From Candidatus Uhrbacteria bacterium (lineage in GTDB: Bacteria; Patescibacteriota; Patescibacteriia; JACQRZ01), in the NCBI GenBank assembly GCA_016206175.1, contig JACQSB010000005.1, positions 1 to 36,127 of the forward strand: a DNA stretch of 36,127 nucleotides, given 5' to 3'. The translations under genes and the position numbers were made by a program. Positions 8,403 through 32,600 of the stretch are shown in pieces (position 1 is the stretch's first letter; the number at the start of each line of letters is the position of its first letter). The notes under the pieces are model-generated. The model saw nothing but the letters and a program-made list of their open reading frames with translations. It was not told the origin of the DNA and did no database searches.

Positions 8403-9248
8403 TTATATTGAATGGTTTTTGTTTTCACTCATAGTATTACCTATGCGGCGAGAATCGGCAAACATTGGCTTCAGACGAGGTCGTTTTGGGGGCAGAGAAC
8501 ACACCAGACGTACGTGTTCCTCAAATTGGCTTATCGTACATGATTTAATCGTATGAGCGCCGCTCTCATGCACATGGGGAATGATACTGAGGACAAAAAT
8601 ATCTTTTTTTTCCGTTGCAACAAATTCGATTGATATGACGCCAACATAGCGAAGCGATTCCGCGATGCGCCGTGAGATGCTTTTGATTTTTCTTGCGTCG
8701 CCCGTCGATAGTTGCGCACGCACAGAAATGATGTCGACATTTTTACCTTTCATAGCTATTTCTGTCGTCGGAAAATAAAAGAGCCTGCCATCATGCGCGC
8801 GACCGAGAGGAAGGATATACTTGCGGTGATGTGCAGCAGATTTTCGTTTTGCCGCAGCCGGGACAACAGGTATCTGGAGCGATGTCAAAAACTGCTGCAG
8901 AAATAATGAATCTTGCGTAATTGAAAATGTTTCAGGACTTGGATGGATTGGTATGACAGCGGCATACTTTCGCAGGATGCCGACATCGCAGGTATCGCTT
9001 ACATAGGTGAGATGGGTAGATGCCGCAATGAGCGCGCGGATCGAGTGTTCGTCGTTGAGTGCGCCGGTAAAGGGGAAATCACAGATGCGTAGCGCCGGCG
9101 CGCGCGACGAGGGATCTAATATAGCTGTTTTAACACCAATGGCATGCGCAGCTTGAACAATGAGGGATCCGAGAGATCCGCCGCCAAGAATGCCAAGAAC
9201 AAGTGAGTCGGCTGGTATATTACATTTACTATGCGATTCGCAACCCAT
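8403..9248 (-). CDS. purK: PurK-like protein (5-(carboxyamino)imidazole ribonucleotide synthase fold), lacking the ATP-grasp A-subdomain and C-terminal domain; possible pseudoenzyme
   Basis: LGILGGGSLGSLIVQAAHAIGV; IHPSPETFSITQDSLFLQQFLTSLQIPVVP; SRRIAESLRYVGVISIEFV; HTIKSCTISQFEEHVRLV. Position in the operon next to purE. 281 aa against ~355-390 aa for typical PurK. Confidence 0.8.
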   Translation of the reverse strand: MGCESHSKCNIPADSLVLGILGGGSLGSLIVQAAHAIGVKTAILDPSSRAPALRICDFPFTGALNDEHSIRALIAASTHLTYVSDTCDVGILRKYAAVIPIHPSPETFSITQDSLFLQQFLTSLQIPVVPAAAKRKSAAHHRKYILPLGRAHDGRLFYFPTTEIAMKGKNVDIISVRAQLSTGDARKIKSISRRIAESLRYVGVISIEFVATEKKDIFVLSIIPHVHESGAHTIKSCTISQFEEHVRLVCSLPPKRPRLKPMFADSRRIGNTMSENKNHSI

Positions 9249-9255
9249 TGTTGTG

Positions 9256-10119
9256 TTATGTTACTAGTTCACTTTCACTTTTGCCTGTCAGCATGCTGTA
9301 TATTTTCACGTAGCGGCCACTCAACTCACCTATTAGCTCCCCCGGTATCGGAGGCAGGGGATTGGTGCTGTAGGGGTCAGAGTGTTCTTTTATCCAAAGC
9401 CGTATAAATTCCTTATCGAAGTTTTCCGGCTCCAGACCTTGCGCGAGACGTGCTTCGTAAGTGTCCGCCTTCCAGTAGCGGCTTGAATCGGGGGTATGGA
9501 TTTCGTCGATCAACAAAATGTTTCCATCTTTGTCGAATCCAAACTCGTATTTCGTATCTACGAGAATCAAGCCGCGTTCACGCGCTACAGACACGCCGTA
9601 TAGATACAGCTCAATCGCTTTACCGGAAAGATACTGCCACTGATCCTCGGTCAGAATGCCTTGCGAAATGATCTGCTGTTCTGTAATGGGCCTGTCGTGG
9701 TTCTGCTCTTTTGTTGTTGGCGTCAAGACAGGGCGAGGAAGCTGCTGGTTTTTCTTCATTCCTTCTGGCAGTGTCAGTCCGTCGAATTCACGCTCACTTT
9801 TGCAGTATTTCACCCACATTGATGTATCTGTTGTGCCAGTGATATACCCGCGTACGACAATCTCCAGAGGAATAGCGCGGCATTTTTTTACGATCATGAT
9901 GTTCGGCTCCGGCGTGGCCAGACAATGGTTTGGTATGATATGCGCGGTTTTTTCAAACCACCACGCACTGATGCTATTCAGGGCGGCTCCTTTGGATGGC
10001 ACCTCGCAAATAATGCGATCAAACGCGCTTAGGCGATTTGTTGTGACTATCTTGAGCGTATCTCCTTGATCATAGATATCGCGCACTTTGCCACTGTAAA
10101 AAGGTACTTCTGATGCCAT
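9256..10119 (-). CDS. purC: Phosphoribosylaminoimidazole-succinocarboxamide synthase (ORF opens at 10197 inside purQ; MASEVPFYSGKVRD at 10119 is the likely start)
   Basis: YSGKVRDIYD; LSAFDRIICEVPSKG; PLEIVVRGYITGT; LILVDTKYEFGFD; IDEIHTPDSSRYW. Confidence 0.95.
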   Translation of the reverse strand: MASEVPFYSGKVRDIYDQGDTLKIVTTNRLSAFDRIICEVPSKGAALNSISAWWFEKTAHIIPNHCLATPEPNIMIVKKCRAIPLEIVVRGYITGTTDTSMWVKYCKSEREFDGLTLPEGMKKNQQLPRPVLTPTTKEQNHDRPITEQQIISQGILTEDQWQYLSGKAIELYLYGVSVARERGLILVDTKYEFGFDKDGNILLIDEIHTPDSSRYWKADTYEARLAQGLEPENFDKEFIRLWIKEHSDPYSTNPLPPIPGELIGELSGRYVKIYSMLTGKSESELVT

Positions 10120-10132
10120 AGATGATATTTCG

Positions 10133-11407
10133 TTATGGGTTATAACGCATACAGATTTGCGAATTGGGGTTATACAGGATATTCGTAGAAAGGACATTAT
10201 CTATCACACTCTGTTGTGATTCGACAGCCGATTCTACCGTCCAAAGCACGCCACTTATGCTCGATTCGATATCAGTAAAACCGTGATGATTTCGTAAAGT
10301 TTGAAGCTTGCTGGAGCCTGCATTATCGTCTCGATAGCGCACCAGATACCAAGCAAACGGTGATTGCGATCGCGGCGCAAGCTTGGATGAATCAATAGAG
10401 CGTTCTTTATTCGTATTACATAATTCTCCACTCGCGATAATTGCGGATACCGTCGACGGCAGAGCTCCTTGTCGGAGAGCTATTTCCCAATGTGCATATC
10501 GACGTACGCGCACATTGATACCATGCGCGCGGAGCGCGGTCTGCACCGTATATGCCGCATTATCAGTAATTATTGATTCCACGATTATTTCATGCCTATC
10601 CTGTTTTTTTACGTAGTCGGGGATGGAGCGCTCGATCTTCGGACAATCGATAAGAGAAAGGCGCGGCGTTGTTTGTTCTGCAATATATTTTCGCATCGAC
10701 TGAAATACGGGTAGGCCGCTTGTGGTGCGTTCTGGATGCGGCATGAGCGCTAGACAATTACCATTTGCATTGCTTACCCCCGCAAGATTGTACGCCGAAC
10801 CGTTTGGATTGACAGGAAACTCGTCGATGATTTCTCCATTTGGCGCGCAGTAGCGGAATGTTGTACATTGTTTTTCCTTCAGTTCGTTCAGAAGATTGTC
10901 TTCCATCATAAAGCGTCCTTCTCCATGCGCTACGGGTACGCGCATGGTAAAATCAGGCTGCATCGCACAGGTAAATGCAGAAGCACGCGGATCGCAGCCC
11001 ACCATCAGCGTCACCCACGCGTTGTAAAATCCGGTGCCGAGTATGCGATTATTTTTGATACGTTTGTTTTCTGTAAGCGCCATGCCGAGTGCATATCCAT
11101 CGCACCCCGGCACGAACCCTGCTTCGACGAGAATCTGCGCGCCATTACAAACACCCAGAATCGGTTTCCCTTTCTCATTTTCTGTACGGAGATATTTCAT
11201 GATCGGATCGAGAGAGGCAATAATGCCGGCTCGAGAACGGTCCTCATACGAAAATCCACCGACAATGAAATATCCGTCAAACAGCGAAAGGTCTGATGGA
11301 TTGCGATTCCACAAGAACTCCTCGGCACCCATACCAGCAGCACGTACTGCGCGGATTGACTCTGATTCGCAGTTGCTGCCGGGGAATTGTATAATGGCAA
11401 TTTTCAT
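10133..11407 (-). CDS. purQ: Phosphoribosylformylglycinamidine synthase glutaminase subunit PurQ with a ~170 aa C-terminal extension resembling two tandem PurS domains
   Basis: MKIAIIQFPGSNCE; GGFSYEDRSRAG; nucleophile elbow GVCNGAQIL (Cys87); MPHPERT (His224/Glu226). Residues ~271-340 and ~350-422 share a PurS-like pattern and resemble each other. Confidence 0.92.
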   Translation of the reverse strand: MKIAIIQFPGSNCESESIRAVRAAGMGAEEFLWNRNPSDLSLFDGYFIVGGFSYEDRSRAGIIASLDPIMKYLRTENEKGKPILGVCNGAQILVEAGFVPGCDGYALGMALTENKRIKNNRILGTGFYNAWVTLMVGCDPRASAFTCAMQPDFTMRVPVAHGEGRFMMEDNLLNELKEKQCTTFRYCAPNGEIIDEFPVNPNGSAYNLAGVSNANGNCLALMPHPERTTSGLPVFQSMRKYIAEQTTPRLSLIDCPKIERSIPDYVKKQDRHEIIVESIITDNAAYTVQTALRAHGINVRVRRYAHWEIALRQGALPSTVSAIIASGELCNTNKERSIDSSKLAPRSQSPFAWYLVRYRDDNAGSSKLQTLRNHHGFTDIESSISGVLWTVESAVESQQSVIDNVLSTNILYNPNSQICMRYNP

Positions 11408-11454: not shown

Positions 11455-12585
11455 TTATCGTATCTGTAGCGATGTTTCGCTATAGGTGACTCCAAGAGAC
11501 TTGAGTACGACTTCTTTCTTTCCACTACGCACGACACCCGCATCCATAGCAGAGAATCCATTACTCTTCATAATTTCCAAGACTTTTTTTGAGTTGTTTT
11601 CTGGAACATAAAGCGCATAATCCTGACCCATATTAAACGTCTCATACATTTCATAGTCAGATAGTGCGGCAGTTTTTTGTATGAATAAAAACTCTTCCTG
11701 TGGCTCGAATAGTTTTTCGATGACGTAGGTAAAATCTCTTTTTGGGCGCATGAGCTTGCGCAACCCATGGCCGGTGATGTTGACGATGTAGTGCAAATTA
11801 ACATTTGCATCTTGCAGTGCAGAAATGAGGCGCGCATAGATGTTGCTTTTTGCAAGGAGAGCCTCGCCAAAGGTTTTGCCTGACGGAAGTGTTTCCGCAA
11901 AGCCTCGAGTCGTCATTGCGGCTACCTTTCTTGCGAGCGTGAGCCCGTTGGCATTGATGCCATTACTCTTGATGAACAGTATTCGATCGCCATGGCGGAT
12001 ACCGTGTTCTGTAATCAAGTGTTTTTTTGTCGGGATGATGCCCACAGCAGACCCCGCAAGATCAATGGTGGATTGTTCAATGATCCCCGAATACGCAGGA
12101 GTCTCGCCGCCGCCCCACACAACATCCGCGATATCGCATGCCCGCTTCCATCCGCGAATTAAATCAGACGCACGTTTTGTATCAGCAAACCAAGCGCTGT
12201 CGCCAACTGCCCAGTATGCATGTACGACGAGCGGCCGCGCGCCGACCGTTATGAGATCATTAATAATTGTTGCAACCGTATCGTGGGCAACAGCGGCATA
12301 GTATGTTTTCTTCCCATATTTTTCCATTGCGTCAGCCACAAGATTTTTCGTGCCGAGCCCTTCAATGACCGAAGCAAAATAGTGCGATCCCTGCTTCCAT
12401 ACATATGCCGACTCGCCGCGGGTCTGTGCTACTTCCCGTCCGCCATTTTGTTTTAGGTGTCGCCCGGTAAGCTTGGCAGCTTTTTGCGCGGCAATTTTAA
12501 TCGGGTCGAGCATTCCGTAGCTGACCCCGGCATTTTCATATGCTGATTTTGTTTTTATAATTTTTCTCGCAGGCCGTTTTGCCAT
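11455..12585 (-). CDS. purM: Phosphoribosylformylglycinamidine cyclo-ligase (AIR synthetase)
   Basis: SYENAGVSYG-like N-terminus (SAYENAGVSYGMLD); GLGTKNLVADAM; DTVATIINDLITVGARPLVV; WGGGETPAYSG; NITGHGL; FNMGQDYALYV. Confidence 0.94.
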   Translation of the reverse strand: MAKRPARKIIKTKSAYENAGVSYGMLDPIKIAAQKAAKLTGRHLKQNGGREVAQTRGESAYVWKQGSHYFASVIEGLGTKNLVADAMEKYGKKTYYAAVAHDTVATIINDLITVGARPLVVHAYWAVGDSAWFADTKRASDLIRGWKRACDIADVVWGGGETPAYSGIIEQSTIDLAGSAVGIIPTKKHLITEHGIRHGDRILFIKSNGINANGLTLARKVAAMTTRGFAETLPSGKTFGEALLAKSNIYARLISALQDANVNLHYIVNITGHGLRKLMRPKRDFTYVIEKLFEPQEEFLFIQKTAALSDYEMYETFNMGQDYALYVPENNSKKVLEIMKSNGFSAMDAGVVRSGKKEVVLKSLGVTYSETSLQIR

Positions 12586-14927
12586 AGCTGTTTTGCTTTT
12601 GAAATATCCAAAGTGAGTTGATGATTATGAGTAGGCATCGCGGCAGTAATTGTCTTTTTGTTTGTTGTTGTGCCGATAGGAAAGAGTTCAACTTTCGATT
12701 GCGCGAAACGGGATTCAATAGATTCCCTGTTATCCGGCGCGACCTCTATAACAAAGCCCGGCGTTTCAGAGAAAAGGAAGATGTGAAGCGGCAGTTCATC
12801 AGACATTTCTATACTGCATCCGATTTCATTGCCAAATGACATCTCGGCAAGAGTGACGGCAATGCCACCGTCGGAAATATCATGCGCGCTCAATACAAGT
12901 CCGGCAGAAATTGCGCTCACGAGAGAATGGATCTGCCTGTTTGCTTCCTGCACATCTGATGATGGAAGATTGCTTCCGAGTTTGCCAGATAACGAGTAAA
13001 AAACGCTGCCGCCGCATTCGTTGTTTCTCTTGCCGATGAGATAGAGTTGGGAGCCAGGCTTTTTGAAACTCATGGTGATTGCACGCGATGCGTCATGCAA
13101 TACGCCTAAGCATGCGATGATCGGGCTTGGCGCAACCGCGCTACCATGAGATTCGTTATACAATGACACATTTCCGGAAATAATAGGAACAGGGGAGTCT
13201 GGATACTGTATGTGCCGTAAACATTGAGCGGCTTCGGCAACTCCGCGTACTGCTTGTACAAATTCCCACATTTGCTCAGGCTTTTCCGGATTGCCAAAGT
13301 TAAGACAATCTGTCAGCGCAGCGGGGAATGCGCCAACTGCGGCAACGTTTCTGGCTGCTTCCAGCACGGCAAGCACACCTGCTTTGTATGGATCAATTTT
13401 ACCGTAGCGCGGGTTTTGATCAACTGACAATGCAACGCCGCAGGTGCGTATTTCAGCCGGATAGGATTCATCGATAAATGGCTGCAAGACGCCGGCATCA
13501 GCCTGTCCCGGTTCAATGATCGTTTGCCCCTGTACTTGTTTATCATAGCGTTCGTAAATCGGCTCGCGGGATGCAACATTTTCGTGCGACAGGATTTTGT
13601 AAAAAATGTCGGCGCACCACGTCAGGTATTCATTCCCATCAGATGGAATGTGTAGTTCCTCATCTGTTGGTTCCGATATAGTTCTTTTCGGTTCCGTGAT
13701 TGGACGATCATACCGCAGACCGCGAGTGACGTCTGATGCTTTTGCATGGACAATAGCAACGCTGCCGGAACGGACAATAAAATCATCGTGGTTTTTGATT
13801 TTTCCAATCACTGCGGCACGGGCTCCGTATGCCATCGACGGCAGGTCGAATGTCGTATTGTAGTGCTCTAAAATCAGAGGCGTAATGTCAGGACGCACTG
13901 CCCAGAGATACCGCTCTTGTGTTTCAGAGCAGAGGACTACGGCGGGATGCAGACCTTTCATGCTCACCGGCACCTTGTCGAGATCAACCTCCGCGCCATA
14001 TCCGGCACTATCAGCGATTTCTACCGAAGCACAGGCAATGCCGCCAGCGCCAAGGTCTTTGAATCCGACATATTCCAGCAGATTTCGCTCTTTAAGTTTT
14101 GGCAGAAGAGTGTAGAGCGCTTTGAGTAAATGGCGTTTGAGAAATGCGTTTGGTTCTTGCACCGCACCTTTGTTGAGCTCTTTTTTGGATTCATCGAGTT
14201 CGCCGGAAGCAAAGGCAGCGCCGCCAAATCCGCTGTTATCAGTCGCTTTCCCGACAAGGATTAAATCATAGCCATCGGCGTTTTTTGGCGCGCGGGAGTG
14301 TATTACTTCATCTGCGCGCACCGTCCCGAGTGTGACGACGTTTACAAGGCAGTTTTCATTATATGATTCGTCAAAATATACATCACCTGCGATGGTGGGA
14401 ACGCCGATCGGATTGCCGTATCCGGCAATGCCCGCAACCACGCCGTCTTGGATCCAGCGGGTTTTAGGAGCATCAAGCGCACCAAAACGTAGCGGGTCAG
14501 CATTTGCAATAACTTTCGCGCCCATACATGATACATCGCGCACGTTTCCGCCGATGCCGGTTGCCGCGCCTTCATACGGGACGACTTGCGAAGGATGATT
14601 ATGCGACTCGTGGCTCATCACAATGCCGTATCTGTTCCCGGCATTATCTCGCGCGACTTCGACAATACCCGCGTCTTCCGACGGGCCAAGGATGACATTT
14701 GGCGCATCGGTGACAAATTGTTTGAGATGCGAGCGGCTGCTTTTATATGAACAGTGCTCTGATCCTTGGATAGACCAGAGGATGCACTCGGTGAGCGTTG
14801 GCGGGCGCTTGAGAATCTCGTTCTGTATTTTAAGAACTTCTTCCGGTGTGAGAGAGATGCGATGCCTAGAAAGCATCTCACGGCACTCTTCTGATGAGAG
14901 AGATGCGAAGTCAATGGTTTCGTTCAT
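12555..14927 (-). CDS. purL: Phosphoribosylformylglycinamidine synthase, small PurL type
   Basis: EHCSYKSSRSHLKQF; SHNHPSQVVPYEGAATGIGGNVRD; FKDLGAGGIACASVEIA; TDCLNFGNPEKPEQMWEF; SGNVSLYNES; AHDISDGGIAVTLAEM. 790 aa with no glutaminase or PurS region. Confidence 0.97.
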   Translation of the reverse strand: MNETIDFASLSSEECREMLSRHRISLTPEEVLKIQNEILKRPPTLTECILWSIQGSEHCSYKSSRSHLKQFVTDAPNVILGPSEDAGIVEVARDNAGNRYGIVMSHESHNHPSQVVPYEGAATGIGGNVRDVSCMGAKVIANADPLRFGALDAPKTRWIQDGVVAGIAGYGNPIGVPTIAGDVYFDESYNENCLVNVVTLGTVRADEVIHSRAPKNADGYDLILVGKATDNSGFGGAAFASGELDESKKELNKGAVQEPNAFLKRHLLKALYTLLPKLKERNLLEYVGFKDLGAGGIACASVEIADSAGYGAEVDLDKVPVSMKGLHPAVVLCSETQERYLWAVRPDITPLILEHYNTTFDLPSMAYGARAAVIGKIKNHDDFIVRSGSVAIVHAKASDVTRGLRYDRPITEPKRTISEPTDEELHIPSDGNEYLTWCADIFYKILSHENVASREPIYERYDKQVQGQTIIEPGQADAGVLQPFIDESYPAEIRTCGVALSVDQNPRYGKIDPYKAGVLAVLEAARNVAAVGAFPAALTDCLNFGNPEKPEQMWEFVQAVRGVAEAAQCLRHIQYPDSPVPIISGNVSLYNESHGSAVAPSPIIACLGVLHDASRAITMSFKKPGSQLYLIGKRNNECGGSVFYSLSGKLGSNLPSSDVQEANRQIHSLVSAISAGLVLSAHDISDGGIAVTLAEMSFGNEIGCSIEMSDELPLHIFLFSETPGFVIEVAPDNRESIESRFAQSKVELFPIGTTTNKKTITAAMPTHNHQLTLDISKAKQLWQNGLREKL

Positions 14928-18640: not shown

Positions 18641-18658
18641 CACAATCGCTTGCATTCT

Positions 18659-20350
18659 ATGCAATTAACTCCTGATGAACTTCACACACTCCTTGTTGAG
18701 AAAGGCTTTTTGAAGGCGGAAGCATTTGATGAAGCTCGCAAGGCAGCAGAGGAGCAAACCATTCCACTTGAATTGTATCTTGTCGATCATGAGTTGATTA
18801 AAGATGAGCAGCTCGGTCTTGTAATAGCCGAGCATTATGAAGTGCCGTTTATCGATCTTGGAAATGTCAAAATCGATGACGCGGTATTGGTGCTCGTGCC
18901 GGAAGTGGTTGCTCGGTCACGCGGCATCATTGCATTTGGAAGAGACGAGAAGGGCTTGCGCATCGCCATGCGCCAACCTCACGATCTTGAGATGATCCAT
19001 TTGATCGAAAAGCGTGCCGGTATGCCCATTGCGCCGTATTATGTGACGCTGCATGACTTTCTCTCCGCGCTTGAACGATACAAAGCGAGCCTCTCCGTAT
19101 CGTTTGAAAAGATTCTTGCCCGTCTCAAAGATCAGCTGTTGAGCCGCGATGAAAGGGATGAAGCGATTGTGGAGCTCATGGATATGCTTGTGCAGTATGG
19201 ATACCAAAACAAGGCTTCAGACATTCATGTATCTCCGATGGCGCGGCATGTCATGGTGCGGTTTCGCATTGATGGCGTTTTGCACGATGTGCTTGAGATG
19301 CCGAAAGAGTTGCTTGATCCGGTCGTGATGCGCGTCAAAATTTTATCAAAAATGCGTACTGACGAACACCGTGCGGCGCAGGACGGGAAGTTTCGCTTCA
19401 ATGCCAAAGAAGAGGTGATTGACGTGCGCGTATCGATCGTGCCAACCACGTATGGCGAAAATGTCGTCATGCGTTTGCTTTCATCAAAACTGCGGCGATT
19501 CAGCCTTGTTGACCTCGGTTTTCAGGAAGCTGATCTGGAAAAGGTGAACCACGCGAGCGAAAGCCCGCACGGCATGATACTGGTGACTGGTCCGACCGGC
19601 AGCGGGAAAACGACGACTGTCTATGCGGTATTAAAGATTTTGAACACGCGCGATATACATATCGCAACGATCGAAGACCCGGTTGAATATGATATCGAAG
19701 GCGCTACGCAGATACAGGTGAATCCGAAAACGGGCCTTACGTTTGCAAAAGGGCTTCGATCTATCGTTCGACAGGATCCCGACATCATCATGGTTGGCGA
19801 AATCCGAGACAGTGAGACAGCCGGCATAGCGGTAAACTCCGCAATGACGGGCCACCTGGTACTCTCTACTCTCCATGCGAATGACTCGGCGACCACATTT
19901 CCTCGATTATTCGATATGGGTATCGAGCCATTCCTGATCGCGTCAACAGTGACGATCGTGATTGCCCAGCGTCTCGTGCGAAAGACCTGCGAAAAATGCC
20001 GTGCCTCGTATGTGCTTACGGCAGAGGAATGGGAGTTGATTGAGGAAGAGCCATCGATCGAGAAATTTTTTGAGTCGCGAGGCTTTACGTCGAAGTCGCG
20101 GCCTCGGGGATATAAAGGAAGCGGTTGTATGGTGTGTGCTGATACCGGTTATTCCGGAAGGCTCGGGATTTTTGAAGTACTGGAAATGAACGACGAGATC
20201 AAACAGTTGATCTTAAAACGCGCTACCAGCGATCAGATCATGAGCGCTTCCAAAAAGGGTGGGATGACGAGTATGCTCGAAGATGGACTCGAAAAAGTTT
20301 TGCTTGGGCTTACTACACTTGAGGAAGTGTTGCGCGCAACAAAGGAATAA
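18659..20350 (+). CDS. pilB: Type IV pilus assembly ATPase PilB/GspE family (ATG 18659; ORF also opens at TTG 18650)
   Basis: Walker A GPTGSGKTTTVYAVL; EDPVEYDIEGATQIQVN; VGEIRDSETA; LSTLHANDSATTFPRLFDMG; zinc motif CEKCRASY...GCMVCADTGYSGR. Confidence 0.95.
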   Translation: MQLTPDELHTLLVEKGFLKAEAFDEARKAAEEQTIPLELYLVDHELIKDEQLGLVIAEHYEVPFIDLGNVKIDDAVLVLVPEVVARSRGIIAFGRDEKGLRIAMRQPHDLEMIHLIEKRAGMPIAPYYVTLHDFLSALERYKASLSVSFEKILARLKDQLLSRDERDEAIVELMDMLVQYGYQNKASDIHVSPMARHVMVRFRIDGVLHDVLEMPKELLDPVVMRVKILSKMRTDEHRAAQDGKFRFNAKEEVIDVRVSIVPTTYGENVVMRLLSSKLRRFSLVDLGFQEADLEKVNHASESPHGMILVTGPTGSGKTTTVYAVLKILNTRDIHIATIEDPVEYDIEGATQIQVNPKTGLTFAKGLRSIVRQDPDIIMVGEIRDSETAGIAVNSAMTGHLVLSTLHANDSATTFPRLFDMGIEPFLIASTVTIVIAQRLVRKTCEKCRASYVLTAEEWELIEEEPSIEKFFESRGFTSKSRPRGYKGSGCMVCADTGYSGRLGIFEVLEMNDEIKQLILKRATSDQIMSASKKGGMTSMLEDGLEKVLLGLTTLEEVLRATKE

Positions 20351-20365
20351 TAAGACATTCGATTC

Positions 20366-21451
20366 ATGCCCGAAGAAAAGAAAAATATCCTGTCAGCCGA
20401 TATATCATTTGGCGGGGTGGGGCCAGCCCAGATTTCGATATTGGCAAAACAGCTTGCCGTGATGTTACGCGCGGGGCTTACCCTTAACGAGTCGCTGCTC
20501 ATCGCGCGGGATTCATCGCGAGGCCAGCTGAAGTCATGCCTTTCTTCGGTAAGTTCCTCAATCAGCGCAGGACAGAAATTATCTCGGGCGCTTTCTGATT
20601 ACCCGCGCATTTTTTCACCGCTTTTCATCAATGCGGTTCGTGCCGGTGAGACCTCCGGCACGCTGGTAGAAAATTTTGAGCAGCTTGCGATGCAGCTGCA
20701 AAAAGAAAAGGAGTTGGCATCAAAGATAAAAGGGGCGATGATTTATCCGATCGTTGTGCTGGTCGCGGCACTGATACTCGGAGCAGGGTTGGCGTTTTTC
20801 GTGTTACCGCAAATCACGCCGTTGTTTGAGCGGCTCAACGTTGATTTGCCGATCACGACAAAAATCATTATTTGGATATCAAAGCAAATCCAATCAAATG
20901 GCGTTGCGATCGCCATCGGCTCTGTCGTTGCAATCGTCGGGTTTGCAGTGTTAATCCGCCAGCGTTTTATGCGGCCGATCACCCACGGAGTATTGTTGCG
21001 GATGCCGGTCATTGCTCCGTTGACGCGCCATGCAAACCTTGCGCGTTTCTGCCGCACACTTGGGACGTTATTGGGCAGCGGTTTGAATATCGATGAAGCG
21101 CTGCTTATCCTGCAAGACACGATGGGTAATTTTTACTACCGCAAGGCAGTACAATCCGTGGCACGGCTCACTACGCGCGGCACGAAACTATCGCGCAACC
21201 TCGAAGATCATGAATGGCTTTTTCCCAAACTCGTCACACGCATGATCGGTGTCGGTGAAGAGTCCGGTAAACTGCAAGAAGCGCTGCTCTTTCTCGCTGA
21301 TTACTACGAGGACGAGCTCGATACTTCAACAAAGTCACTTTCCACCGCTATCGAGCCGCTGTTGTTAATCGGCATCGGTTTGGCTGTCGGATTCCTCGCG
21401 CTTTCCATCATTACACCGATCTATGAAATCACGGGAAACGTCAAGAGATAA
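20366..21451 (+). CDS. pilC: Type IV pilus inner-membrane protein PilC/GspF family
   Basis: QLAVMLRAGLTLNESL; FINAVRAGETSGTL; KIKGAMIYPIVVLVAALIL; ARFCRTLGTLLGSGLNIDEAL; RMIGVGEESGKL; AIEPLLLIGIG. Confidence 0.95.
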   Translation: MPEEKKNILSADISFGGVGPAQISILAKQLAVMLRAGLTLNESLLIARDSSRGQLKSCLSSVSSSISAGQKLSRALSDYPRIFSPLFINAVRAGETSGTLVENFEQLAMQLQKEKELASKIKGAMIYPIVVLVAALILGAGLAFFVLPQITPLFERLNVDLPITTKIIIWISKQIQSNGVAIAIGSVVAIVGFAVLIRQRFMRPITHGVLLRMPVIAPLTRHANLARFCRTLGTLLGSGLNIDEALLILQDTMGNFYYRKAVQSVARLTTRGTKLSRNLEDHEWLFPKLVTRMIGVGEESGKLQEALLFLADYYEDELDTSTKSLSTAIEPLLLIGIGLAVGFLALSIITPIYEITGNVKR

Positions 21452-21926
21452 CGGCCGAGGCGGGACGGGTTTTACCCTGATCGAGCTGCTTGTCGTCTTG
21501 ACGATTTTTTTACTTCTTATCGTGGGGTCAATTTCCCTGTTTCGCTCCACGCAGGTATCGGCTCACTTGAACGAGCAGTCGAACGCTCTCATCCATGCCT
21601 TACGCTCCGCCGATATTGAATCTTTGTATGGTCGGCATAATAACTCGCATGGTTTGTATTTTACGGCCGCGCCCGGAGGCGAAGAACAAATCATCCGATA
21701 CACCGGTACGTCGTATGCCGGACGTGTCGCCGGTTCTGAAATTACCTACACATTTCCATCATCGATTGATCTGTCGCTCCAGCTGTCTACGACGACCCCC
21801 GAGATCGTTTTTGCGCGCAATACCGGCGTGCCTAGCGCAACAGGCACGATCCTACTCGATCTTGCCGGTATTGGCTCGAGGACAATATCAGTCAATCGAC
21901 TCGGCGCTGTTGATGAGGTTGATTAG
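21423..21926 (+). CDS. Pilin-like protein with type IV prepilin signal (GspH/FimT-like)
   Basis: Prepilin cleavage motif GTG/FTLIELLVVLTIFLLLIVGS; overlaps the pilC end by 29 nt. Confidence 0.88.
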   Translation: MKSRETSRDNGRGGTGFTLIELLVVLTIFLLLIVGSISLFRSTQVSAHLNEQSNALIHALRSADIESLYGRHNNSHGLYFTAAPGGEEQIIRYTGTSYAGRVAGSEITYTFPSSIDLSLQLSTTTPEIVFARNTGVPSATGTILLDLAGIGSRTISVNRLGAVDEVD

Positions 21927-21951
21927 CGTTCCATTAAACAAATTCCTTATC

Positions 21952-24936
21952 ATGCGTTTTTATCAAAAAGGTGAAAGTCTCCTTGAAGTCGTGCTTGCTC
22001 TCGGTATTTTTTCATTGATGATTGCTGCCATCACGGCGATGCTCACCGGCGGTTTTGGATTATCTCGCATATCGGAATTGTCACTCCAAGGAAATGCACT
22101 TGCGCAAGAAGGGATTGAGAATACGCGCTCGGCGCATGCCGATACGTGGAATATCATTCCCTACACGCAAACAACGACCGAAACACTCGGCAGATTTACG
22201 CGGACAACAACATACAACGCCGTATGTCGAACAGCGGTGCATGAAATAGCAACGTGTCCGGCATCATATACCGATATCCATACAAAGGAGGCTGTTGTGA
22301 CGGTAAGCTGGCAAGATCGGATTGGAATAACGAATTCTGTGCGTCGAGCAACGTATCTGACAAATTGGGAGTCGCAGGATTGGACGCAGACAGATTGGTC
22401 AGGCGGTGCAGGGCAAACGATCTGGAATGATACAACAAAATACGATAGTTCTACATCACTTACCGCGACAAGCAGTCCCGGTACGTTGCGGCTCGGTGAT
22501 GCTCCGGACGGCCAATGGTATATCAGCGGCGGCTCCGAACGTACCGACACCACCGATACCCAGTTCAATGCAGGCACCTTATCGGATGTTGTTGTAAACG
22601 GTTCTGGTGAAAACGCTGGAGTCACGCTTGAGCAGGGTTTGCAGTGGGCGCCACACCAGAACAGCGCGAGTACGACCTCGTCGCATCTGAATGCTATTTC
22701 TCTCCTATCGTCGACCGATATATGGGCATCCGCAAATAACGGAGAGATTATCCGCTACGATGGTTCTTCGTGGTCACTGAATTACGATGTTGGCAGCGCG
22801 CATCTTAACGGTATCGCGATGCGCACCACATCCGATGGTTGGGCAGTGGGGCAGTCAGGAAAAATCTATCACTACAATGGAACAGCATGGAGTGAGAGCG
22901 CAGACAGCGGAAATGATGTATGGTTTGACATTGCATCTCTTGCCAGTAATGACGTATGGGTGGTGGGCAGTGATGACGATGAAGCAGAAGACGACGGCAA
23001 AATCGCCCATTATAATGGTTCCGTATGGTCGTATGTTACCCCGCCTTCTGATCATGTGATCTACGGTGTTGCAGCTGTATCGCCAACAGATATGTGGGCT
23101 GCGGGAAAGAGCGGCCGTATCTGGCGATACAATGGTGTATCATGGAGCCTGCAAACGGATACCGGATCTGAAACATGGAATGACATCGTATTGATTTCAG
23201 CAAACGACGGATGGGTGGCTGGCAAGAGCGGTGCCGTTGCCCATTGGAACGGGTCAGCATGGACTGTTGCTGCCGTACCTTCTCCGGCGGAAATAAAATC
23301 CCTTGATGCCATCTCATCAACCGATATCTGGGCAGTCGGACAAAATGGCAATGTATGGCACTACAATGGGAGTGCATGGGAATATCGTGGGACAGCCGGA
23401 TCTGATAAGTTAAACAACATTACCATGATCAATGCGCAAACCGGCTGGGCCGTAGGAAACAATGGACGCATCGAGTTGTATGGGTTGCTTCTCTATGATG
23501 CAACAGGCACGTATCAGTCAACGGTCGTTGATACGGGTACGGCTTCCCCGATCTGGAGTGTTGCCTCCTGGGTTGAAACTCTTGTTGCAGGAGGCAATGT
23601 GACGATAGCAACACGCACGGGCGCAACTCCCGCACCTGACGGGTCATGGTCATCATGGAGTGGAGAGCTGACACAACCAAACGGATCGCAGATCACGTCG
23701 CCATCCGCACGCTATTTGCAATATCGCATATCATATACACGCGGAGATAATCCTACAGAAAGCCCACGAGTTGATGCCGTCACCATACAATACAATCTTG
23801 CGACATCAGCGAATCTCTACAGCATAGCGGCACTATCGTCATCGGATGTATGGGCCGCAGGAGCGAGTGGTAAGATTATTCATTTTGATGGTACTGGTTG
23901 GGCAGAGTATGCAGATACCGGCAATGAAACATGGTATGCAATGGATTTTCGTACTCCTATCGATGGCTGGGTCGGCGGTATCAGTGGAAGCGTTGCGCAT
24001 TGGAATGGTTCCTCATGGTCAGATTCATCAGTACCGTCCGCAGCGGATATTCGTGCGATCGCTGCTGTTGCTGTTAATGATGTATGGGCCGCCGGCCTTT
24101 CAGGCCGCATTTGGCATTACGACGGTTTATCGTGGACGCTTTTTATCGATACCGGCAACACAACATGGAGAACACTTGCGTTCTCATCTGCCAATGATAT
24201 CTGGGCAGGCGGCGATAGCGGCGCGCTCGCGCACTGGGATGGTTCTTCATGGTCCACTTCAACAATCCCATCTCCGGATACGATATACGGCATGACGGCA
24301 GTCTCGTCATCCGATATGTGGGCTGTCGGCGCGAACGGTAAGATTTGGAATTATAACGGATCAAGTTGGTCACTGCATACCGATACGGGATCGCAGCAGT
24401 GGTTGGGAAGCGCTTTTCCCACAAGTTTTGATGGATGGGCAATAGGAGGAGACGGCGCGATACGGCGATATAACGATACCGCATGGAGTTCCTTTTCTTC
24501 GCCAACCGCGGAGATGCTATCAGCAGTGTCATTTGCGAGTAGAAAGCTCGGTTGGGCTGTTGGTGATGACGGGATGGTGCTGCGTTTTTATCGAGAAAGC
24601 GTATCGGTGATGTCCGGCAGTTTGCAGTCATCAGCTTTTTCCATGAGCGATGCTTCGCCGATCCAAACCATTGAGTGGACTGATGTTAGCACTGATTGCA
24701 GTTCTCCTTGCAAACTGCAATTCCAGCTTCGAGCGGCTCCTGATGCAGGCGGGTCCCCCGGTACCTGGAGTGACTGGTATGGCGCAAACGGTACAAGCAC
24801 GTATTTTACCGTGCCGAATGGTTCTCTTGTGCCAACGGCATTAAATGGCAAGCAATGGGTGCAGTACCGCGCGGAGTTCATAAGCGATGGCACGAGTACC
24901 CCTATCCTTTCCGATGTAACTGTTAATTATCAGTAA
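21952..24936 (+). CDS. Giant pilin-like protein (~994 aa): prepilin N-terminus plus two blocks of seven propeller-type repeats and two beta-sandwich-like domains
   Basis: Start MRFYQKG/ESLLEVVLALGIFSLMIAAITAM (prepilin-like). 14 copies of ...D.WA.G..G.I.HYNG..W... at ~38 aa spacing. The ORF track start at 21595 overlaps the upstream pilin gene and is unlikely. Confidence 0.9.
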   Translation: MRFYQKGESLLEVVLALGIFSLMIAAITAMLTGGFGLSRISELSLQGNALAQEGIENTRSAHADTWNIIPYTQTTTETLGRFTRTTTYNAVCRTAVHEIATCPASYTDIHTKEAVVTVSWQDRIGITNSVRRATYLTNWESQDWTQTDWSGGAGQTIWNDTTKYDSSTSLTATSSPGTLRLGDAPDGQWYISGGSERTDTTDTQFNAGTLSDVVVNGSGENAGVTLEQGLQWAPHQNSASTTSSHLNAISLLSSTDIWASANNGEIIRYDGSSWSLNYDVGSAHLNGIAMRTTSDGWAVGQSGKIYHYNGTAWSESADSGNDVWFDIASLASNDVWVVGSDDDEAEDDGKIAHYNGSVWSYVTPPSDHVIYGVAAVSPTDMWAAGKSGRIWRYNGVSWSLQTDTGSETWNDIVLISANDGWVAGKSGAVAHWNGSAWTVAAVPSPAEIKSLDAISSTDIWAVGQNGNVWHYNGSAWEYRGTAGSDKLNNITMINAQTGWAVGNNGRIELYGLLLYDATGTYQSTVVDTGTASPIWSVASWVETLVAGGNVTIATRTGATPAPDGSWSSWSGELTQPNGSQITSPSARYLQYRISYTRGDNPTESPRVDAVTIQYNLATSANLYSIAALSSSDVWAAGASGKIIHFDGTGWAEYADTGNETWYAMDFRTPIDGWVGGISGSVAHWNGSSWSDSSVPSAADIRAIAAVAVNDVWAAGLSGRIWHYDGLSWTLFIDTGNTTWRTLAFSSANDIWAGGDSGALAHWDGSSWSTSTIPSPDTIYGMTAVSSSDMWAVGANGKIWNYNGSSWSLHTDTGSQQWLGSAFPTSFDGWAIGGDGAIRRYNDTAWSSFSSPTAEMLSAVSFASRKLGWAVGDDGMVLRFYRESVSVMSGSLQSSAFSMSDASPIQTIEWTDVSTDCSSPCKLQFQLRAAPDAGGSPGTWSDWYGANGTSTYFTVPNGSLVPTALNGKQWVQYRAEFISDGTSTPILSDVTVNYQ
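22678..23490 (+). repeat. Protein-level tandem repeat block 1 (7 blades)
   Basis: Blades read as SSHLNAIS..., SAHLNGIAM..., NDVWFDIAS..., SDHVIYGVA..., SETWNDIVL..., SPAEIKSLD..., SDKLNNITM.... Confidence 0.85.
23806..24597 (+). repeat. Protein-level tandem repeat block 2 (7 blades)
   Basis: Blades read as SANLYSIAAL..., NETWYAMDF..., SAADIRAIAA..., NTTWRTLAF..., SPDTIYGMTA..., SQQWLGSAF..., TAEMLSAVSF.... Confidence 0.85.
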
Positions 24937-24940
24937 AGCA

Positions 24941-25486
24941 ATGCAAAGCGCAACTTTTCAATCAACAGCAGTTTCGAGCGACTCTCGGGCATTCACGCTC
25001 ATTGAAGTCATTATCGCAACAGCGGTGATATCGGGTATTGTTTTTGCCTCGGTTGGTTTTTTTGGCGCCGTCCTTGCTGGCCGCGCAAAAACGCAGGCCG
25101 CGCAAGAAGTGCATGACGCGACAAGAATTGCATCAGCGCTTATCACAAAGCGTATTCGAGCGGCAGCAACAGTTGTAAGCGCATCTTCCACATTTGGCGT
25201 CAGTCCCGGCGTTCTAACTCTTTCGATGGCCGACAGCGCTCTGAATCCGACTGTTATATATGTCTCAGGGAATTCCATACTGCAGATAACAGAAGGGACG
25301 TCAGCTCCCGTGAGTGTGACGAGCAACAATGTTTCCATTACGAATCTCATATTTACGCAGACTTCGTACCCGGGAAGCAGTGGAGGCATTACTCTTGATA
25401 TGACAATAGCATATCGTAATCCAGACGCGGATCCGAATTATTCTTATTCATTGCGTCAGCAGACACTTACCTTATTGCGGCCCTGA
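24941..25486 (+). CDS. Minor pilin-like protein (PilW/GspJ-like)
   Basis: Prepilin motif SRA/FTLIEVIIATAVISGIVFASVGFF; operon context. Confidence 0.85.
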   Translation: MQSATFQSTAVSSDSRAFTLIEVIIATAVISGIVFASVGFFGAVLAGRAKTQAAQEVHDATRIASALITKRIRAAATVVSASSTFGVSPGVLTLSMADSALNPTVIYVSGNSILQITEGTSAPVSVTSNNVSITNLIFTQTSYPGSSGGITLDMTIAYRNPDADPNYSYSLRQQTLTLLRP

Positions 25487-25487
25487 T

Positions 25488-25892
25488 ATGGTACATTCCG
25501 TGATACACTCTAAAGCAGCCTCGCTTATCATAGCAGTTATGATTATATCGGCAGCCCTTTTCGTGGTTGCTGTGACGAATATCAATGTCGGGATTGGAGA
25601 TGCTGATCTTGCGCTTGTCGCAACGAAGGGCGAGCAAGCATATACAGCAGCAGAGGGTTGCGTGCAAGATACATTGCGACAGATACGGCGGACTGCTTCG
25701 TATGGCGTAGGCAGTGGTACTATCACATTCACATCAACGATCGGATCGTGTACAATAGATGTCATTGATCTTGGTGGCAACCAACGCAGAATATCTGTCA
25801 CCGGCACCGTCGATGATTTCTCGAGACGGATTACTGTTACCGCAACAGTCGGCGGGTTGGTGATTACTATTCAGTCATGGCAAGAAACATAG
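25488..25892 (+). CDS. Small PilX/GspK-like minor pilin
   Basis: N-terminal SKAASLIIAVMIISAALFVVAVTN hydrophobic segment; 134 aa; pilus operon context. Confidence 0.6.
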   Translation: MVHSVIHSKAASLIIAVMIISAALFVVAVTNINVGIGDADLALVATKGEQAYTAAEGCVQDTLRQIRRTASYGVGSGTITFTSTIGSCTIDVIDLGGNQRRISVTGTVDDFSRRITVTATVGGLVITIQSWQET

Positions 25893-25897
25893 GCCGT

Positions 25898-27610
25898 ATG
25901 AAGCAGACAAAAAAAACAAAGAAATCAAAAAATATCATAGGGATCGACATCGCAGACCATACGTTATCGCTTGTTGAGCTCGAAAAAAATAGAAACCATC
26001 CTCACATCACGTCTGTTACGCGGGTAAGCATACCTTCCGGCATTGTCGTACGAGGGAGGATACGCGATGCCGAAAAACTTCAGGAATTATTTGAATACGC
26101 GATTTCAGCTGCGCATCCTGCGCCGATGGTGTCTCGAAATGCGATCATGGGAATACCCGACAGCCAATTATACACGCATCTTGCGCGTCTGCCTGCAAAA
26201 AAAGATAGTGAATTCGAAGAAGTTGCGCGATCAGAAGCTTTCAATACATTCCCCATCGAGAAACGCGATCTAGTATATTCCTATCGTTCGGTATCCCATA
26301 CCACCGATGGTGCAGACACGGTATTTATTGCTACATCCAAAGAGGTTCTGCGCGAATGGGATTTATTTTTTCGGCGGATAGGCATTTCAGTATTATTTTA
26401 TGACAGCGAAGTTCTCGCGACCGCGCGCGGGTTAGTGGCACACGGAGGCGATAACGCATTTTGTCTTGTGGATATTGGCGCTGCCACCACCACTGTTTCT
26501 GTATTTGATGTGATAGGCATTCGGTATGTGTATTCAATCGAACACGCGGGAAGCGCATTAACAGAAGGCATTGCAAAACTGGAAAGCCTGCCGTTTGATG
26601 AGGCGCAAAAGAGAAAACACGAACTGGATCTTGCTGATATTCCAACGAGCCTTGCAGCGATCCTTCCATCATTTTTTGATCCCATCCTCAAAGAAATAGA
26701 TACGGCAATCAAATACGTATCGCAAAGCTATAACGTTTCTGTTGCAAAAATCATTCTTGTTGGCGGAACAGCTGCCTTGAAAGGGTTGCCGGAATACATC
26801 AGCAAGCATACTGGCATCGATACCGAGCGAGGTGTTTCTATCATTACGAATGCAGAGCAGAGTCGTGTGCAACGCGAGGAGCCAAGCATTGAATCGATCG
26901 GATTAGCGTTATACGGACTCAATCAAAAAGAATACGAGAACTCTCCAAATCTGATTTCTCCTCCGGAAGATACGGCGCAAGGCGAGGTTGTCGCGAAGAA
27001 AGGCGCGCCGCAAGCATATGATGCAAGCGTTGAAAAAATGAAGGAGTTTCGTGACATCAGAAAAGAACAAAAACGCATGCGTAATCAGATTATGACGTTA
27101 GTGGTTGTTTTGGTTGTTGGCACGGCGTTGCTTATGGCAGCGTTTTGGTATCAGCGGCAAGAGCAGGAGCGAAAAGAACAAGCGCTACGCAAGGCGATCC
27201 CGCAATACACGTATCAGCAAACAGCGCAGATGCTCATACCAATTAGCATCCAGGGCTCGGCAGAAGGTATGGCATCGGGTAGTCTGTCTCGGATATCGGT
27301 GCCGGAGGATACGGTTGTCAATGATGCGATACGAGCTGATGCCGAAGTGAACTTGCGCCGCCAACTGCAGGCAGGGCAAGATTATTGGAACAAGCCGTTT
27401 GATCCGCCATTGTCGTTTCTCGTATTTAACAAAAATGAAGTTCGCTTACTTGCCAATGCTATGATTGCCCAACGCGCGGGTACAGCGATACCCTATGATG
27501 TAGGGTATATCGAATATCTAGATGCCGAAAAATCGGAGGATACACCGGTATTTTTTCTGACTGTACGGGCATCCATTAGCGCGCAAGCGCCCCTGCAGGG
27601 TCTGGAATGA
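25898..27610 (+). CDS. pilM: PilM-like actin-fold pilus protein fused to a C-terminal TM helix and extracytoplasmic domain (ORF opens at 25877; M at 25898)
   Basis: NIIGIDIADHTLSLVELE; CLVDIGAATTTVSVFD; KIILVGGTAALKGLPEYI; then QIMTLVVVLVVGTALLMAAFW TM and ~150 aa tail. Confidence 0.85.
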   Translation: MKQTKKTKKSKNIIGIDIADHTLSLVELEKNRNHPHITSVTRVSIPSGIVVRGRIRDAEKLQELFEYAISAAHPAPMVSRNAIMGIPDSQLYTHLARLPAKKDSEFEEVARSEAFNTFPIEKRDLVYSYRSVSHTTDGADTVFIATSKEVLREWDLFFRRIGISVLFYDSEVLATARGLVAHGGDNAFCLVDIGAATTTVSVFDVIGIRYVYSIEHAGSALTEGIAKLESLPFDEAQKRKHELDLADIPTSLAAILPSFFDPILKEIDTAIKYVSQSYNVSVAKIILVGGTAALKGLPEYISKHTGIDTERGVSIITNAEQSRVQREEPSIESIGLALYGLNQKEYENSPNLISPPEDTAQGEVVAKKGAPQAYDASVEKMKEFRDIRKEQKRMRNQIMTLVVVLVVGTALLMAAFWYQRQEQERKEQALRKAIPQYTYQQTAQMLIPISIQGSAEGMASGSLSRISVPEDTVVNDAIRADAEVNLRRQLQAGQDYWNKPFDPPLSFLVFNKNEVRLLANAMIAQRAGTAIPYDVGYIEYLDAEKSEDTPVFFLTVRASISAQAPLQGLE

Positions 27611-28506: not shown

Positions 28507-28857
28507 ATGGCAAAGAAACTCTACGTTGGCGGACTTCCGTACACAACGACTGAAGACGAGTTGAAAGACGCGTTTTCACAGTCAGGTACGGTTGCATCGG
28601 CAACAATCATCAAAGATAAGTTTTCAGGCCGTTCCAAAGGTTTTGGATTCGTCGAATTTGAAAACGACGAAGAAGCCGACAAGGCTGTCGAACTGTGGAA
28701 TGGCAAGGAACTCGGCGGACGCCGTCTTACGGTAAACGAAGCGCGTCCGTTTCAGCCTCGTCCAGCAGGCGGCGGTCGATCATTCGGCGGCGGCGGTCGG
28801 GGCGGCTACGGCGGCGGCGGTCGGCAGAACTACGGTTCTGGCGGATACAGTTCCTAA
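28507..28857 (+). CDS. RNA-binding protein, single RRM plus glycine-rich tail
   Basis: RNP2-like KLYVGGLPY and RNP1-like RSKGFGFVEF; tail GGGRSFGGGGRGGYGGGGRQNYGSGGYSS. Confidence 0.95.
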   Translation: MAKKLYVGGLPYTTTEDELKDAFSQSGTVASATIIKDKFSGRSKGFGFVEFENDEEADKAVELWNGKELGGRRLTVNEARPFQPRPAGGGRSFGGGGRGGYGGGGRQNYGSGGYSS

Positions 28858-28906
28858 ATTTAGGATATCGATCCACGGTAACCTCTTTAGTTGAGGTGAA
28901 CCAAAT

Positions 28907-28935
28907 AAAAGCGTCCACACCCTGGGCGTTTTTAT
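28907..28935 (+). terminator. Rho-independent terminator after the RRM gene
   Basis: AAAAGCGTCCA-caccc-TGGGCGTTTTT (two G-U pairs), then TTATTATTC. Confidence 0.75.
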
Positions 28936-28958
28936 TATTCTATGTTAGAATGCTTTTT

Positions 28959-29648
28959 ATGAAATCTGAAACAATCCTTCTTTCGGTAGGTGGCTCGCTC
29001 GTTGTGCCTGATGGCGTTGACATTGCATTTTTGAAAAACTTGCGATTACTCGTAGCGCGCCATATCCGCAATGGCAAACGGTTTGCAGTGAGCGTAGGAG
29101 GCGGTTCGACCTGCCGTACGTATCAAGATGCAGCACGTGCCGTGATGCCAAAAACATCACAGCTCGAACTCGATTGGATCGGTATACGGTCAACGGAGCT
29201 GAATGCCTACCTTGTGAAAGTAATCATGGACGAGCTCGCGCATCATGAGGTGATTTCCAATCCCACCAAAAAAATACGTCTCGATAAGCCGGTCGCAGTA
29301 GTAGCAGGATGGAAGCCGGGCTGCAGCACTGACATGGATACCGTGCTTCTTGCCAAGAACTTAGGCATTAAGCGTATCGCAAACCTTACGAATATTGATT
29401 TTGTATACGATAAAGACCCGCGGATACATACTGATGCAAAGCCGCTTCGCGATATTACCTGGAAAGCGTTTCGTGCGATATTACCTCCGCAATGGAAACC
29501 AGGGCTCCACTCGCCATTTGATCCTGTCGCATCAAAGCTCGCGCAAAAACTCGGATTGACCGTTGCCATCATGAACGGTAACGATTTTGCCAATTTGAAC
29601 AAGTATATTACAGGAAAGCCGTTCGTTGGAACCGTGATCCACTCGTAA
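28959..29648 (+). CDS. pyrH: UMP kinase-like amino-acid kinase family protein, archaeal-type PyrH (ORF track start 28695 overlaps the RRM gene; ATG at 28959)
   Basis: ILLSVGGSLVVPDGVDIAFLKNL; SVGGGSTCRTYQDAA; GWKPGCSTDMDTVLLAKNLG; ITNVD-like LTNIDFVYDKDPR; DPVASKLAQKLGLTVAIMNG. Confidence 0.85.
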   Translation: MKSETILLSVGGSLVVPDGVDIAFLKNLRLLVARHIRNGKRFAVSVGGGSTCRTYQDAARAVMPKTSQLELDWIGIRSTELNAYLVKVIMDELAHHEVISNPTKKIRLDKPVAVVAGWKPGCSTDMDTVLLAKNLGIKRIANLTNIDFVYDKDPRIHTDAKPLRDITWKAFRAILPPQWKPGLHSPFDPVASKLAQKLGLTVAIMNGNDFANLNKYITGKPFVGTVIHS

Positions 29649-29653
29649 TAGTA

Positions 29654-32600
29654 TTACAGCTTCACGACCTCAAGTTTTGCAAGGTCGGCATTGCTGATGC
29701 CAAGGCCTTTTTCACGCATGATGGCAAACGCGTCTGACGGCCGTCCGAGATAGTATGCCTTCTTATCTTTCGGATAGACATAGTGCGCACGGCCCTTTGT
29801 ATCTATGTCAATGAGAATCTTTCCCACTACATTAGCAGGGTATTCCATATAGCCTTTTAGAAAGCTGTTTTTTACCCCGAGCCCCAATTTGCGCATGACA
29901 GCAAATGCGTCGGCTGGCCGTCCGAGAGAATATGCCTTACTGTCTACCGGATAGATATAGTAAGCCTCACCATGCGATTGCGTCTGCAATACAATCATTC
30001 CTTTGAGCCGGTCAGCAAATGATAGCGTTTTTGCCGTTATTGGTGATGCACTTTTTTTAGCTGCAAGTGTTTTAACTGCTACCTGATCCATATTGGTGGA
30101 CTCGTTGTTATATTGATCCACGCTACGGACAGTGTAGTAGTATGTTTTTGATGCACTTACCGTCTCATCGGTTGCCTTGGTTTCCGTCGTTGATGATATC
30201 ACGAGTTTGCCGAGATCACCTTTTGTTGATGAGCGGTACACTTTGCTGTAGCTAACAGTGCTTGCAATATCTTTCGCATAACTCCAAGCAAGCGATACAG
30301 CCCCCGTTGACGCCACTGAAGCAGAGACGGTTTGCGGGATCGAGCGCGTCTCTGTCTGTGTGGAAGCGATCAGAGCAAACTTCGTCAGATGCGCAAGCGT
30401 GCCGGTAATCGTATGGTCAGCTTCATTGACAACTGCATTTTGCACTGGTTGCCAGCTGTAGCGTGCTTCATCCCAGAATTGGAGAGACAGATCGGTCGGC
30501 GTGAGACCAAGACGTTTTAATTCTGTCGGCTCATACGGTATAGCTACGGTGATATCCGAATTAAAGGATGATATGTCTCTTCCTTGTGCAGAGCGGACAT
30601 CAACATCATATCCGAGCCCAACAACTCGTGAGGAACCTTGGGAAGGTGTCACAACCTGTGGCGTTATCGAGAGCGCAACGGCGCCGCCCGTGCCTGCCGA
30701 GCCCGGAGGGAGCGAGACTTTTACCCCTTCGCTGTTGCTGACTACTGCGAGCTGGTCAGCATCTGCCGTTGCCGTCACGGGGTCGGGGAGCCGTACATCG
30801 AGTGATGCAAGGCTGATATTTTGCGTGATTTTTTCTTCTGTTCCGATCGGCAACGTGAACTCCGAGCTTTTATATGCCACCCGATCTTTTTCTGACATTG
30901 CGGCGATATGCCATACATCGTTTGCCGCGACTTTCAATTTGTATCTGCCGTCATCATCAGCATATCCATCGGTATAGCCACCCTTATCCGACCATGCCCA
31001 GATGAACGCCCACGATGGCGATCCATCAATCATCGCAGTGCCGCTCAATGTGACGTTGATCGGGCGGAACACAAGCGTGACATCTTTTGTCTCGCCTGCA
31101 GCAGCAGACACTTTTTGTTCCACCGGGTTTGCATAGCCAAGTGAAGGAGGCAAGAAGGATCGGATGTAGTAGGCGGTATCCGGTCTTACCTTAAAGTTAA
31201 ATTTGCCGTCTTGATCCGTGTAGTCGCCATTGAGGTAGGATAATTGTTTTGCGGTTTCCTTGGAGAAGAACGCAAAACTCTTCGTGGAAATCCCAATCCA
31301 TATATTCTGTACCGGTTTTCCTTCCGTATCGATCGCTCTGCCATTTAGGTTAGCATTTGCGCGATAGGCCTTTAGCTCAGCAGAACGATCTTGTCCCGGC
31401 TGCACTGTCATCTTTATGCCGCGCATTTGCTGAGGCTTCAGGTAGGTGCCCGATGGATCACTGATGTCATAGTCTATATACCAATCTCCGGGCGGGAGAC
31501 TCATCTTGAATGTGCCCTTAGTCGTATCAACGTCAGCAGAATACCACGCGCCATTTTTGCCCGCGGTAAAGACCTTGAACGGTACGCCGGTCACCAATGA
31601 TCCGCGCTCATCTACCAGCCTGCCTGAAATGCTTGACGCTTTTGCCGAAACTGTAAAATTTACTTGTTTCCGTTCGCCGGTTGCAAGCGCAACAGAAACA
31701 GCATTCTCCGGTACATACGTTGAGTTTGGCAACGTTTCAAGAGTTAAGATGTATTCTCCGGCAGGCACGCGCAAAGTAAACTCACCATTCTGCACCGGAG
31801 CGCCTTGGGGCAAACGCGTTCCGGATTTCTGCTGCACGGAGACAAAGCCGTAAAATCCGGTGATAATCGCGCCTTCCGGTGTACGGATGTTCCCCGATAC
31901 AAAAGCATCAGATGCTGAAATAGCGAAATCAACAGTCACTGGTTCAGCCCCCGACACTCTGACAATACGCGGTGGCCCTTGCATACTGTAGCCTGACTCC
32001 GGATCTAGTATTACGCTCACCGTCCATTCGCCAGCGGACACCTTTAGGAAGTATTTGCCATTGTCGTCTGTGGCGCCAAAGATTGACTCTCCGGTGGATG
32101 ATTTCCATGCGCCGACTTTCACTCTGCCAAGCGGCATATTTTTATCATCTCTCACCGTCCCTTGGATCACGCGGTTGGTGGTGAGGAGTGTTATTGTTTC
32201 AAGGTCTTTTGATTCTCCATCCGCAAGAGTGATTGTTCTGGGGGGCGGGGGAGTGATGCCGATATTTTGCGTAAGCAATTCGACTACCACCGTATATGAG
32301 CCAGCTGGCACGGGTACCTCAAACCTTCCATCCGCGTCATTCGATATGCTGAATGGCGGCATTTCGGAACGCCCTGTTAGTCGAACGGATACCGACCCCA
32401 CGGGTAGTGCAAGTCCATCTTCGCGCGCAACGCGACCGAATACTTTTGTCGCACTAATGCGGCTAACTGTGAAGTCAACTTGCTTGATCGGCGTTGCAAC
32501 GTCTCCAACAACTACTTCTTTTGGCGGTCCGGACCAATACCAATTTGATCCACCGAAATAAGTATTTGACGCCGGTATAAAGCCGCTGTTTGATTGCGGA

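Follow-up and report, generated by a model that had tools for sequence, protein, structure and literature searches.

The window analyzed here is a stretch of 36,127 nucleotides from a Candidatus Uhrbacteria genome. On its minus strand lies a de novo purine biosynthesis operon comprising purL, purM, purQ, purC, a purK-like gene, purE, purB, purF, purD, purN, and purH. The purL and purM genes overlap by 31 bp, a gap of 47 bp separates purM from purQ, and purC lies directly after purQ. The features considered below are as follows.

10133-11407, minus strand: predicted purQ-purS-purS fusion gene (ATG start; 424 aa plus stop)
10712-11407, minus strand: PurQ glutaminase domain, residues 1 to 232 (TIGR01737, PF13507; triad Cys87, His224, Glu226)
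10607-10711, minus strand: variable linker, residues ~233 to 267, with the lowest conservation along the chain
10385-10606, minus strand: PurS-like repeat 1, residues ~268 to 341 (ITDN..., RxxHWE, SGELxNTNKE)
10136-10360, minus strand: PurS-like repeat 2, residues ~350 to 424 (DDxxG, GVLWTVE, ILYNPxSQ)
12555-14927, minus strand: purL, small type, predicted partner (790 aa; TIGR01736, 671 bits, cut-off 525.75)
11455-12585, minus strand: purM, between purL and purQ, divergent (TIGR00878, 177.5 bits, under the cut-off of 236)
9256-10197, minus strand: purC open reading frame, operon neighbor; the real start is likely near 10119, immediately after the purQ stop
8403-9248, minus strand: gene for a PurK-like protein (281 aa)

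The PurQ equivalog model TIGR01737 covers residues 1 to 232 of the fusion protein with 196.6 bits (cut-off, 177.8), and the Pfam model PF13507 (GATase_5) covers residues 2 to 231 of its 424 aa. With the stricter PurQ model NF002957 a score of 183 was obtained, below the cut-off of 212. All three residues of the class I glutaminase triad are present, and they do not vary across the relatives aligned (n = 8). All of this agrees with the original prediction of a 424-aa PurQ open reading frame with a C-terminal extension; the PurQ models end near residue 232, and approximately 190 aa remain. The extension had been described as two tandem PurS-like domains sharing a DNA/QT/LR pattern. Its two-domain layout held up, as detailed below. 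The pattern itself does occur in both repeats of the window protein, as DNAAYTVQTALRAH at residue 282 and DNAGSSKLQTLRNH at residue 361, but it is not conserved in relatives, the literal DNA..QT..LR motif being peculiar to the window protein alone. Across relatives, the conserved core is ITDNEA...RxxHWE...SGELLNTNKE in repeat 1 and DDxxG...GVVWELE...ILxNPxxQ in repeat 2.

The window protein alone gave no match to the PurS model PF02700 even at an E value of 10, and neither the extension profile nor one relative's sequence matched any PDB sequence. The connection to PurS was made through relatives. Five of the eight aligned members matched PF02700, three of them over the curated cut-off and all three in repeat 2 (best E value in the tail of relatives, 6.5e-8), and repeat 1 was matched weakly in three sequences (E, 0.03 to 0.06). 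A whole-genome PF02700 search independently found the tail of one carrier of the extension (G135). Repeat-specific alignments of 13 sequences were then compared by hhalign with a PurS alignment of six sequences, four from solved structures. Both repeats aligned with PurS nearly over the full length, repeat 1 over 67 columns (P = 7.6e-5) and repeat 2 over 62 columns (P = 3.2e-5), where each P value refers to a single comparison of small alignments. The scores were 27.8 and 29.6, against shuffle maxima of 20.5 and 14.0, respectively. The family profiles of the two repeats also matched each other (P = 9.1e-5); since the score of 26.2 was above all 200 column shuffles (mean, 10.3; maximum, 22.6), their likeness is more than chance. 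In none of the three comparisons did any of the 200 shuffles attain the observed score. The closest match of repeat 2 was unit 1 of the PurS pair in medium PurL (P = 8.9e-7). This route, that is, relatives and profile-profile comparison with small alignments, supports homology between the tail and PurS. AlphaFold2 modeling of the extension alone from a single sequence gave a pLDDT of 33.6 and no confident fold. Derivation of the tail from the N termini of large PurL found no support, there being no significant similarity within the phylum (best P, 0.04).

The PurL encoded in the window had been predicted to be of the small type, in agreement with its length and TIGR01736 score. Only about 54 residues precede its SEH motif, so that no N-terminal PurS region is present. 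Neither is it of the medium type, in which approximately 216 residues precede SEH (two measured) and about 160 residues are extra at the N terminus. Across the phylum, PurQ and PurL were both recorded in 82 of 380 sampled genomes. Extended PurQ was accompanied by a short PurL in 23 of 23 genomes, with an open frame of at most 905 aa; in one of these (G147), PurL is split between contigs. In the 21 carrier PurLs that were read, at most 95 residues, and usually 52 to 66, precede SEH even when counted from the most upstream Met. Ordinary PurQ occurred in 37 genomes with PurL open frames of 925 to 1,051 aa, the exception being an 893-aa frame at a contig end (G486). The remaining 22 genomes have a one-chain PurL of 1,250 to 1,386 aa. 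The sample is cleanly partitioned: genomes with PurQ-PurS-PurS have a short PurL, those with ordinary PurQ have a medium PurL, and the rest have one-chain enzymes.

Small PurL had been noted to stand without a visible purS open reading frame, and co-occurrence of the extended PurQ with loss of purS had been put forward as a check. Both points were supported by the search. No separate purS lies between purL, purM, purQ, and purC in the operon. PF02700 had no match in the genome of the window (77% complete), and no separate purS was found with this model in a congener (G001; 100% complete). Likewise, no PF02700 gene outside the fusion was detected in the 23 carriers among 380 genomes. It should be noted that PF02700 finds only part of the PurS units of medium PurL and misses many diverged PurS sequences in the phylum; its silence is therefore strong support, but not proof, that carriers lack a separate purS. 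Apart from units inside medium or large PurL, the PF02700 matches in the 380-genome sample comprised two separate open reading frames, both in genomes without a detected PurL. One is an orphan PurS gene beside a purN-like gene (L068; G211 C6:185062-185280), in a 98% complete genome in which no PurL or PurQ was detected.

Eight full-length sequences with the extension were present among 144 relatives, window included, and 23, again window included, among the 380 genomes spread across the phylum. Two further extended PurQ proteins were found within the class. In total, PurQ-PurS-PurS was found in at least 32 genomes, all in the phylum of the window, which is what the genome surveys covered; its genomes measure about 1 Mb and fall into very many families, as would suit Patescibacteria (CPR). 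In 191 genomes of the class, extended PurQ genes were the only matches of the tail profile. A scan of genome contigs with the single window sequence returned only ordinary PurQ, all from Alphaproteobacteria, and scans of viral contigs found no relative of the fusion protein. The fusion genes of carriers sit in pur operons. A member of the same family as the genome of the window (G008, L020) has a one-chain large PurL of 1,336 aa and no fusion. Arrangements are therefore patchy, and horizontal exchange is likely.

In a phylogenetic tree, the PurQ cores of 28 carriers formed one clade (support, 100/100) on a long stem, separate from the PurQ of medium-PurL genomes, of large PurL, and of Alphaproteobacteria. 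A single origin of PurQ-PurS-PurS would be the simplest reading. Between the window and its congener, identity was 37 to 42% in the tail and 72% in the core. Evolution is faster in the tail than in the core, but the tail is under purifying selection in the pairs that allow dS to be estimated (tail dN/dS, 0.07 to 0.35); several other pairs are saturated. Nine tail columns, including Asn331, Lys334, and Glu335, are kept in at least 25 of 28 sequences. In one large carrier family (f130), the middle part of repeat 2 is lost and the terminal xFxNPHAS segment is kept.

Considering these results together, the window protein is very probably the PurQ (glutaminase) subunit of FGAM synthase (EC 6.3.5.3) to which a PurS pair is covalently attached. 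The pair would fold like the PurS dimer and dock to small PurL, giving a two-gene complex; this estimate applies to the combination. Attachment of the PurS pair to the glutaminase, as originally predicted, is supported by the homology of the tail, the single clade of carriers, and the complementarity with PurL length. PurS is a homodimer that corresponds to the N-terminal domain of large PurL, and the three-subunit enzyme needs it to work efficiently (PMC3815217). The PurQ part would release ammonia from glutamine, while the two PurS-like domains would pair like the PurS dimer or the N-terminal domain of large PurL. This pair would dock the glutaminase on small PurL, allowing ammonia to reach the synthetase site. 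The three-gene complex of one PurL, one PurQ, and two PurS would then need only two genes, for PurL and for PurQ-PurS-PurS, and covalent attachment would fix the 1:1:2 stoichiometry. We infer the fold, the dimer-like pairing, the docking, and the catalytic competence of PurQ-PurS-PurS. In large PurL, the PurS-like domain buries 1,919 Å2 on the glutaminase versus 1,033 Å2 on the synthetase, and an 80% drop in activity has been connected with unfolding of the N-terminal domain (PMC3815217). The larger surface buried on the glutaminase makes attachment to PurQ plausible (PMC3815217). Since this domain touches both the glutaminase and the synthetase, the former more extensively, a pair carried on PurQ would most likely keep the ordinary geometry of the complex.

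Alternatively, the tail might derive from PurS but be degenerating or otherwise employed, for example allosterically, while an unrecognized small protein supplies the PurS function. The faster divergence of the tail, the reduction of repeat 2 in one family, and the insensitivity of PF02700 to diverged PurS are compatible with this. However, the tail is in frame in every carrier, dN/dS is low where estimable, the complementarity with PurL length is clean, and PF02700 together with the tail profile found no other PurS-like gene in carriers, which makes this explanation improbable. Less probable still is an unrelated pair of small α/β domains that resemble PurS by chance or convergence. The window protein alone does lack a PurS match, and neither a confident structure nor a PDB sequence match was obtained. 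Against this stand three relatives over the curated PF02700 cut-off, the independent whole-genome match, the scores of both repeats well above shuffles, the similarity of repeat 2 to the first PurS unit of medium PurL, and the genomic complementarity with PurL types; coincidence is hardly credible. An artifact, that is, a frameshift, a chimeric assembly, or read-through joining purQ to a neighboring open reading frame, is conceivable for a single draft genome, 77% complete, but is refuted by homologues with the same open frame (410 to 445 aa, no internal stops, conserved tail) in at least 32 genomes, and its probability is negligible.

The preferred reading of a glutaminase-borne PurS pair can be set against three known arrangements. 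The three-subunit FGAM synthase PurS-PurL-PurQ of Bacillus subtilis and Thermotoga maritima (PDB 3D54) likewise has a small PurL, a PurQ, and two PurS per complex, but there PurS is a separate homodimer, whereas the window system carries two diverged units on the C terminus of PurQ and no separate purS was found. In some methanogens, medium PurL (mdPurL) has about 200 extra N-terminal residues, usually with no purS gene (PMC3261824), and this type is also common in the phylum of the window. Here, too, the PurS pair is fused to a partner and the separate purS is lost; the pair, however, is on the N terminus of PurL, in contrast to the C terminus of PurQ beside a short PurL. Large PurL (FGAR-AT; e.g., Salmonella, 1T3T) also has a region resembling the PurS dimer that is joined covalently to the glutaminase and occurs once per synthetase. 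Its single chain runs PurS-PurS, linker, synthetase, and glutaminase, whereas the window system consists of two chains and places the PurS pair behind the glutaminase.

Fusion of PurS to PurL in the medium and large types is already known. The order PurQ-PurS-PurS is apparently undescribed, as no description was found in the open-licence literature searched, although annotation-level precedent is possible. PurL with PurQ-PurS-PurS is probably a further FGAM synthase architecture that arose once in the sampled lineage and provides a glutaminase-borne PurS pair with specialized units; as part of the same estimate, specialization would consist in strong conservation of repeat 1 and reduction of repeat 2 in one family. 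PurS would then be known in four settings: as a free protein, fused to PurL, inside a single-chain enzyme, and fused to PurQ. If this is true, the two PurS protomers could be tested for separate roles in one chain, and the built-in asymmetry of the repeats could be used to study what PurS does in ammonia transfer, a role that is poorly understood. Surveys of gene presence would score carriers as lacking PurS, and their ability to make purines could be misjudged.

Several further observations concern the neighborhood of the fusion. In one carrier (G354 C8, ~62.6 to 65.3 kb; L039, L110), an 888-aa chain has the order PurQ-PurS-PurS-PurC-PurE. Its PurE part resembles the class II type, the one joined to PurC in eukaryotic PAICS. 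The divergent PurM of the window is 69% identical to that of the congener and 25 to 31% identical to PurM of other carriers. The PurK-like protein is short (281 aa versus models of ~360 to 380), with a two-piece match under all cut-offs. The other carriers have no purK match, and their PurE is only 29 to 35% identical to that of the window. Both observations suggest that the PurE type changed in the genus of the window. Elsewhere in the window, consecutive type IV pilus genes span 18650 to 27610, and beyond them lies a 2,090-aa open reading frame (29654-35926, minus strand). The product of a UMP kinase gene (28695-29645, plus strand) exceeds the cut-off of TIGR02076, the archaeal-type model, and scores far below that of the bacterial one.
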